Source: Anaerolineae bacterium (lineage in GTDB: Bacteria > Desulfobacterota > Desulfobacteria > Desulfobacterales > ETH-SRB1). Taken from it: a DNA stretch of 64,000 nt. A program made the position numbers and the translations under genes. Below, piece after piece: positions 3,009 to 44,178 of this stretch (position 1 is the stretch's first letter; each line of letters begins with the position of its first letter). Location of the stretch: assembly GCA_035529315.1 (NCBI GenBank), contig DATKWZ010000009.1, positions 1 to 64,000 of the forward strand. Reading direction: 5' to 3'. Under the pieces are notes generated by a model. That model made no database searches. It had not been told where the DNA came from and saw only the letters and a program-made list of their open reading frames with translations.

Positions 3009-4327
3009 TAGTGTCCGGTTAACATTCAAATAATTTCAATTGGATATGTCCGATAGTAATTTGGTTTTTGTAATCACTTTGCGCCAGCACCTTATAAATA
3101 GGCTTTTTCTCAAAAAGAGATATACTTAAAATCTGCAAAACAGTGTAGAGAGTCAAATCAATTTTCAGCCGTTTTTTCATTATGACAACCAGAACATACG
3201 TTGATATTGCGATCCATATTTGAGTTTTAACAGCATTTTCCGATGTGCCAAAGAATTTTTTGATTCTCAAATGCTGTTTGATCCATTTGAAAAATATTTC
3301 CACTCGCCACCGGTAACGATACAACTCGGCAATCGTTAACGCCGGAAGCGTGAATTGGTAAGGAAAATGAATGTTCTTTCTTGTTCAGCATCGAAATATT
3401 TTATGCGACGTAGCTTGGCCGAATAATCTTTTTTTGCATAAAACCCCATTGGTAAAACTATTTGATCATATCTAACTTCAGTGGTTTTATCAACTTTTTG
3501 TGAATATAAACGGCAAAGCCCTGTATTGGTTTTAGAACGAGTCATAAATACGGCCAAGTACTGGTGTATTTGGTAAAGCCGCTGAAAATCCAAATAGGCA
3601 CGATCCACGATATAGATTGCGCCCGGTTCCGGAATAAGATGATCGAGCACATTAACATCGTGAACTTTACCATCAGTAATTCAAATAAAAGTCGGGATAT
3701 CGCCGCGCAAATCCAGTAGCGTATGTAATTTTACGGCTGCCTTGGTTTTGCGAAATCGAGCCCATGGAAAAACCGAAAGGCATAGATCAATTGTCGATAA
3801 ATCAAGAGCATATACGGTCTCTTTCAATTCAAGGCCAAAATCATCTTCGACATACAGACTACGAGCTTCATGAATCAAAATTTGGGCAAAGTCGCTGTAT
3901 ATCTGCCAATCTCGAATTTCGTTGGCATCAGCCAAAGTGTTACGAGAGACCTTACCCCTTATACCAATATGGTAAAGTTTCTCCTGCATGGCCCGTAGAC
4001 AGCGCTCGATATCACGTAAGCTTTCACGGTATGCCAGTTGAGCAGCCATAAATAAAAATTGATTGTAGCATGTAAAAGAATGTATACAGTGATTATCACT
4101 ATAACGATTGACACATTGACTAAATTTTTTCTTTGGTAGAAAATCGATTGCCTGAGAGAAAATAGTTTGACCCTGGTTCATAGTGAGGCTCCTTTCGCAT
4201 GTTTTTCTGCAAAAGAACCATAAAACCAGGTTTATGGCAAATTCAAATCGATCCCTTTGGATTTCGTCAATATTTAATATATATTAATATAGTTAACCCA
4301 TGTTTCAAAAATCTTAACCGGACACTA
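3009..4327. mobile_element. IS4-family insertion sequence, inactive
   Basis: The element is bounded by perfect 14-bp inverted repeats TAGTGTCCGGTTAA (3009-3022) and TTAACCGGACACTA (4314-4327) and is about 1.3 kb long. It carries one leftward transposase frame that is broken twice. No clear target-site duplication is seen. It sits directly upstream of gltX. The intact ends could still be moved by a relative acting in trans. Confidence 0.85.
3019..4181 (-). pseudogene. IS4-family DDE transposase, nonsense and frameshift
   Basis: Three consecutive pieces form one transposase. The N-terminal piece (4181-3681) has a DUF4372-like region, SFTCYNQFLFMAAQLAYRES, then ALDLSTIDLCLS. The middle piece (3680-3336) has DHLIPEPGAIYIVDRAYLDF, and the C-terminal piece has YRYRWRVEIFFKWIK. 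That last motif fits the IS4 signature Y-(2)-R-(3)-E-(6)-K exactly. A TGA at 3683-3681 falls between PTFI and ITDGKVHDVN, which otherwise join in frame. The second break, near 3350, is a frameshift: LTNSRFRR then stop in one frame, FTLPALTIAELYRYRW in the next. The protein is therefore dead unless both breaks are bypassed. Confidence 0.9.
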
Positions 4328-43568: not shown

Positions 43569-43773
43569 ATCAAACCTCCAAAAATTACAAAATTAATATT
43601 AACTTCACCGCTTGCCTTTTTTTAATAAATTTTGTAATAGTTAGCAAAAAATGCAGATTCTGTCAAGAAACAAAAGCATTTCCCCAGTTCATCATTGACA
43701 AACATAATTGAGGTGATTAAAATAAATAATGTGGATTAATAAATTTTGATATTACGTTATTAAGGAGGAAGTT

Positions 43774-44088
43774 ATGGTTGAGATTACAAACGCAGCAACA
43801 ACACAGATTGGTGAATATTTTAAAGACAGAGAGATATCGCCGATTCGGATTTTTTTAAACGCAGGAGGGTGAGGCGGACCTTCCCTTGCGATGACTCTGG
43901 ATGAGTTAAAAGACAGCGATAATATATATGAGGTTGACGGATTTAAATATGTTGTCGATAAAGTATTTATGGAGAAATCAAAACCGATTAAAGTAGATTT
44001 TAATCAGTTTGGGTTTAAAATAACATCGGGCATGGATTTAGGGGCTGGATGCTCAAGTTGTGGTACCACTAGCTCATGTTGTTCCTGA
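43774..44088 (+). CDS. IscA/HesB-family selenoprotein (in-frame UGA = Sec33)
   Basis: The 104-residue protein is coded by one frame with a TGA at 43870-43872, read here as selenocysteine at residue 33. Upstream: MVEITNAATTQIGEYFKD and IRIFLNAGG; downstream: GGPSLAMTLDEL, then FKYVVDK and the C-terminus GAGCSSCGTTSSCCS. The Sec sits where IscA-type proteins have their first conserved Cys, and C93/C96 fit the C-terminal cysteine pair. The family binds Fe-S clusters or iron; HesB-like selenoproteins are known in this lineage. AAGGAGG lies just before ATG 43774 and a terminator follows at 44106. I did not prove a SECIS hairpin after the TGA. A short 65-codon ORF starting at 43891 is a piece of it. 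Confidence 0.85.
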
Positions 44089-44105
44089 TAAAAAATACAT
44101 TTTAT

Positions 44106-44141
44106 AAAAAAGGGCATCACCATACGGTGATGCCCTTTTTT
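44106..44141. terminator. Intrinsic terminator after the selenoprotein gene
   Basis: GGGCATCACC and GGTGATGCCC pair perfectly around a short ATAC loop, with A residues before and six T residues after on the plus strand. It lies 18 bp after the stop codon. Confidence 0.9.
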
Positions 44142-44178
44142 ATTGTCCATTGAAAACAGATTATGATAAAAAATTAAA

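Follow-up and report, generated by a model that had tools for sequence, protein, structure and literature searches.

A Predicted Selenocysteine-Containing Protein of the IscA/HesB Family Encoded Across an In-Frame TGA in a Member of the Desulfobacterales

Introduction

Positions 43774-44088 of the forward strand almost certainly encode a selenocysteine (Sec)-containing protein of the IscA/HesB family, predicted to adopt the A-type (IscA/SufA/HesB) fold, whose frame is interrupted by a TGA codon at the site of a conserved cysteine. The part of this reading that is established computationally comprises the frame, its homology, the fold, the Sec machinery of the genome and the conservation of a SECIS hairpin, whereas Sec insertion in the cell at UGA 43870 is what we infer. 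That the protein binds an Fe-S cluster and acts as a carrier is reasonably likely, and less certain than the existence of the Sec protein itself.

HesB-like selenoproteins had been described by 2006, in a list of 11 selenoproteins, several in Deltaproteobacteria (PMC1794560); they are known from Deltaproteobacteria and Clostridia (PMC1794560, PMC13188914), and their motif is given as UxGP (PMC13188914, 2026). The protein described here also carries UxGP and thus belongs to an already known kind of selenoprotein. No literature was found under the model name NF038090, to which we assign it below.

The Gene and Its Signals

The window, i.e., the whole stretch of 64,000 nucleotides that was analyzed, contains a 104-codon frame whose sole interruption is the TGA at 43870-43872. 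The following features were assigned:

43774..44088, forward strand: gene for a 104-residue Sec-containing member of the IscA/HesB family (NF038090), closed by the TGA stop at 44086, predicted from frame, profile, homologues and fold
43762..43768, forward strand: strong Shine-Dalgarno sequence AAGGAGG, 5 nt before the ATG at 43774, from the sequence
43870..43872, forward strand: predicted Sec codon UGA for residue 33, at the alignment position of the first cluster-binding Cys in IscA, within the motif GG-U-GGP (UxGP)
43892..43908, forward strand: predicted bacterial SECIS hairpin, 6-bp stem UGACUC/GAGUUA and loop UGGAU, from folding, comparison and the constraints of PMC13188914
44050..44085, forward strand: C-terminal Cys-rich tail CSSCGTTSSCCS, holding the remaining thiol ligands (predicted), from sequence and alignment
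44104..44143, forward strand: intrinsic terminator hairpin, -28.1 kcal/mol, z -10

When the TGA is translated as U, the read-through protein begins MVEITNAATTQIGEYFKDREISPIRIFLNAGG-U-GGPSLAMTLDEL. The standard open reading frame listing holds only a 65-residue fragment (43891-44088) that starts at the ATG at 43891, after the TGA, in agreement with a preliminary description of this DNA, according to which the gene had been missed by ordinary ORF calling. The same description had noted a 104-codon frame cut only by the TGA at 43870, a Shine-Dalgarno sequence, an intact C-terminal CSSC and a terminator directly after the gene, and each of these was recovered here.

When the window was screened with a loose motif for further Sec-type TGAs, 21 matches came up, and inspection by eye recognized a Sec context only at TGA 43870. 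TGA 3683, a candidate from this screen, was rejected as a Sec codon, as it sits in a broken transposase and reflects decay. This transposase (3019-4181, reverse strand) is split by stops into three ORFs that contain pieces of DUF4372 and DDE_Tnp_1. A plasmid search returned no match.

Family Membership, Fold and Possible Role

The curated cut-off of NF038090 (IscA_HesB_Se, NCBIfam) is 85 bits, and the read-through protein clearly exceeds it with 114.9 bits (E 1.7e-33), residues 1-95 aligning with profile positions 1-101. This match, together with the conservation, in homologues from many genera, of the sequence before and after the same TGA, indicates that the TGA-spanning frame does not arise by chance. 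With TIGR01911, the HesB-like selenoprotein model, it scores 32.3 bits, under the cut-off of 66.35, and it was therefore assigned to NF038090, the sister model, instead. The score with TIGR00049 (A-type Fe-S carriers) is 35.6 bits, again under the cut-off (58.8), and Pfam models gave no match to the read-through protein at E values up to 1.

Sequence comparison with solved structures aligns U33 with the first Cys in IscA and in the related proteins AQ_1857 and HI1723, which bears out the earlier placement of the TGA at the first metal-binding Cys. An AlphaFold2 model, for which 41 window and locus sequences were used and Sec was entered as Cys, has a mean pLDDT of 84.6, with residues 93-104 of the tail unordered, and Foldseek relates it to IscA and SufA structures with a probability of 1.00.

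As a member of NF038090 the window gene is ordinary: it matches over the full length above cut-off, Sec or Cys occupies the same site, UxGP is common to both and no notable difference was seen. With the HesB-like selenoproteins of TIGR01911 (PMC1794560, PMC13188914) it shares the fold family, the UxGP motif and a downstream SECIS, but falls below the cut-off of that model. It resembles the Escherichia coli A-type carriers IscA and SufA (1S98, 1R94, 2D2A) in fold and in the position of the first Cys, but differs from them in having Sec for that Cys and another C-terminal Cys pattern; it is ~24% identical to them and lies under the TIGR00049 cut-off. The preliminary view that HesB-like selenoproteins are known in related bacteria, and that the gene calls for a corrected annotation rather than a new family, is upheld; the gene is a clear member of a known family.

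In the mechanism that we propose, UGA 43870 would be decoded as Sec by SelB with Sec-tRNA(Sec), under the direction of the hairpin that lies just downstream inside the coding sequence. A-type carriers have three conserved Cys, the first of which Sec33 would replace; together with the CSSC/CC thiols of the C-terminus, Sec33 would probably bind an Fe-S cluster or iron, which may then be passed on to client enzymes. A Sec protein of the same fold could instead serve in selenium or metal binding or in redox sensing. Such a role is possible though not favored: the tail CSSCGTTSSCCS is unlike the canonical CxCG ending of IscA, the family lies under the canonical TIGR00049 cut-off and the literature examined gave no function for HesB-like selenoproteins, but the fold and the arrangement of three thiols (one a selenol) agree with A-type carriers, and the genome yielded no other A-type candidate.

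The SECIS Element

The published bacterial SECIS model (PMC13188914) describes a loop of 3-9 nt, an upper stem of 4-16 bp, a G within the first two loop positions, a distance of 16-37 nt from the UGA and a minimum free energy of at most -7.5 kcal/mol. The hairpin UGACUC-UGGAU-GAGUUA at 43892-43908 agrees with all of these: its loop has 5 nt with G at position 2 and lies 25 nt past the UGA, its stem has 6 bp, and the stretch 43870-43920 folds at -8.9 kcal/mol. The folding energy alone is unexceptional against shuffled sequences, and the case for the SECIS therefore rests on comparison. The inner five pairs are formed in 32 of 33 distinct Sec genes versus none of 15 Cys homologues, and both groups encode nearly the same ALDE peptide in this stretch. 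Changes on both sides occur at three of the six pairs, and the covariation score was reached by none of 500 shuffles, counts that are not to be read as probabilities since the Sec and Cys sets are both made of related sequences. The window hairpin itself has one compensatory pair, A-U for the usual G-C, brought about by Ala-to-Thr and Pro-to-Leu codon changes; the outermost pair is not conserved. A covarying hairpin is thus present after the TGA, where the preliminary description had suggested looking for it.

Conservation and the Nature of the TGA

The class was represented by 147 genomes, and 138 of them have an NF038090 match above cut-off. Nearly all of the matches listed contain a single in-frame stop, which is TGA in every case and never TAA or TAG, and about two dozen are stop-free; all 15 of the stop-free homologues that were read have Cys at the Sec33 position. 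The sequence on either side of the TGA is conserved in homologues, and the TGA itself is kept across most genera of the class. Downstream of it, dN/dS is 0.07-0.40 (against genus and family relatives where computable), indicating purifying selection. The YdjM-like, nitroreductase and FmdE-like genes that come after the gene are the same in close relatives. Two MAGs, one of Candidatus Desulfaltia (L019) and one of Desulfobacteraceae (L018), are its nearest relatives with a name. One further genome (L042) carries Cys and Sec paralogues in tandem (1501-1881 and 2015-2329), a natural pair for comparing Sec with Cys.

A single base change separates the TGA from TGC and TGT, which both encode Cys, and under the standard code the TGA breaks the frame, as a nonsense mutation in a pseudogene would. 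Such decay is extremely improbable given the same TGA across most genera, with both flanks conserved, the purifying selection past it, the covarying SECIS and the lack of any other lesion in the frame. Nor is the TGA at all likely to be a true stop followed by a separate small protein of 65 residues from the ATG at 43891, shortly after it, as the A-type fold of the AlphaFold2 model spans the TGA, the Cys homologues run unbroken through its position and an ATG is missing at that place from many Sec homologues. Both readings were rejected because the TGA is kept from genus to genus. The preliminary arguments for a Sec protein, namely that conserved sequence flanks the TGA, that there is no second lesion and that homologues should have Cys or Sec at that site, have held up, both residues being found at exactly this position.

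Selenocysteine Machinery of the Genome

All the sel genes for which the preliminary description suggested searching are present in the same genome: selA (616.9 bits), selB (378.5 bits), the gene for tRNA-Sec (RF01852, 72.5 bits; tRNA-SeC with anticodon TCA by ARAGORN) and selD (383.7 bits). The selD gene (L022) contains one in-frame TGA, and selenophosphate synthetase is therefore probably a selenoprotein as well.

Implications for Fe-S Cluster Delivery

The correction itself matters for annotation, as plain code-11 gene calling truncates the gene and simple callers would split it in two. Beyond this, a search of its own genome (97.8% complete) brought up no TIGR00049-like protein other than the window protein. 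Canonical IscA/SufA/ErpA proteins, taken as TIGR00049 matches above cut-off, were not found in any of the 147 class genomes, and a phylum sample of 198 genomes yielded them in only 7. These counts are limited in that divergent carriers can escape curated cut-offs and in that many of the genomes are MAGs and incomplete; all eight matching control genomes match above cut-off. Since no sampled genome of the class exceeds the cut-off, the Sec protein may be the only A-type carrier of its lineage. The counts suggest that the NF038090 selenoproteins may substitute for the canonical carriers. We advance only tentatively, as a rather doubtful proposal, that the class lacks canonical IscA/SufA/ErpA and has this mostly Sec-containing subfamily as its only A-type carrier, so that much of the lineage would depend on selenium for its Fe-S delivery. 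If true, this wider pattern would tie Fe-S cluster delivery in relatives of sulfate reducers to the supply of selenium.
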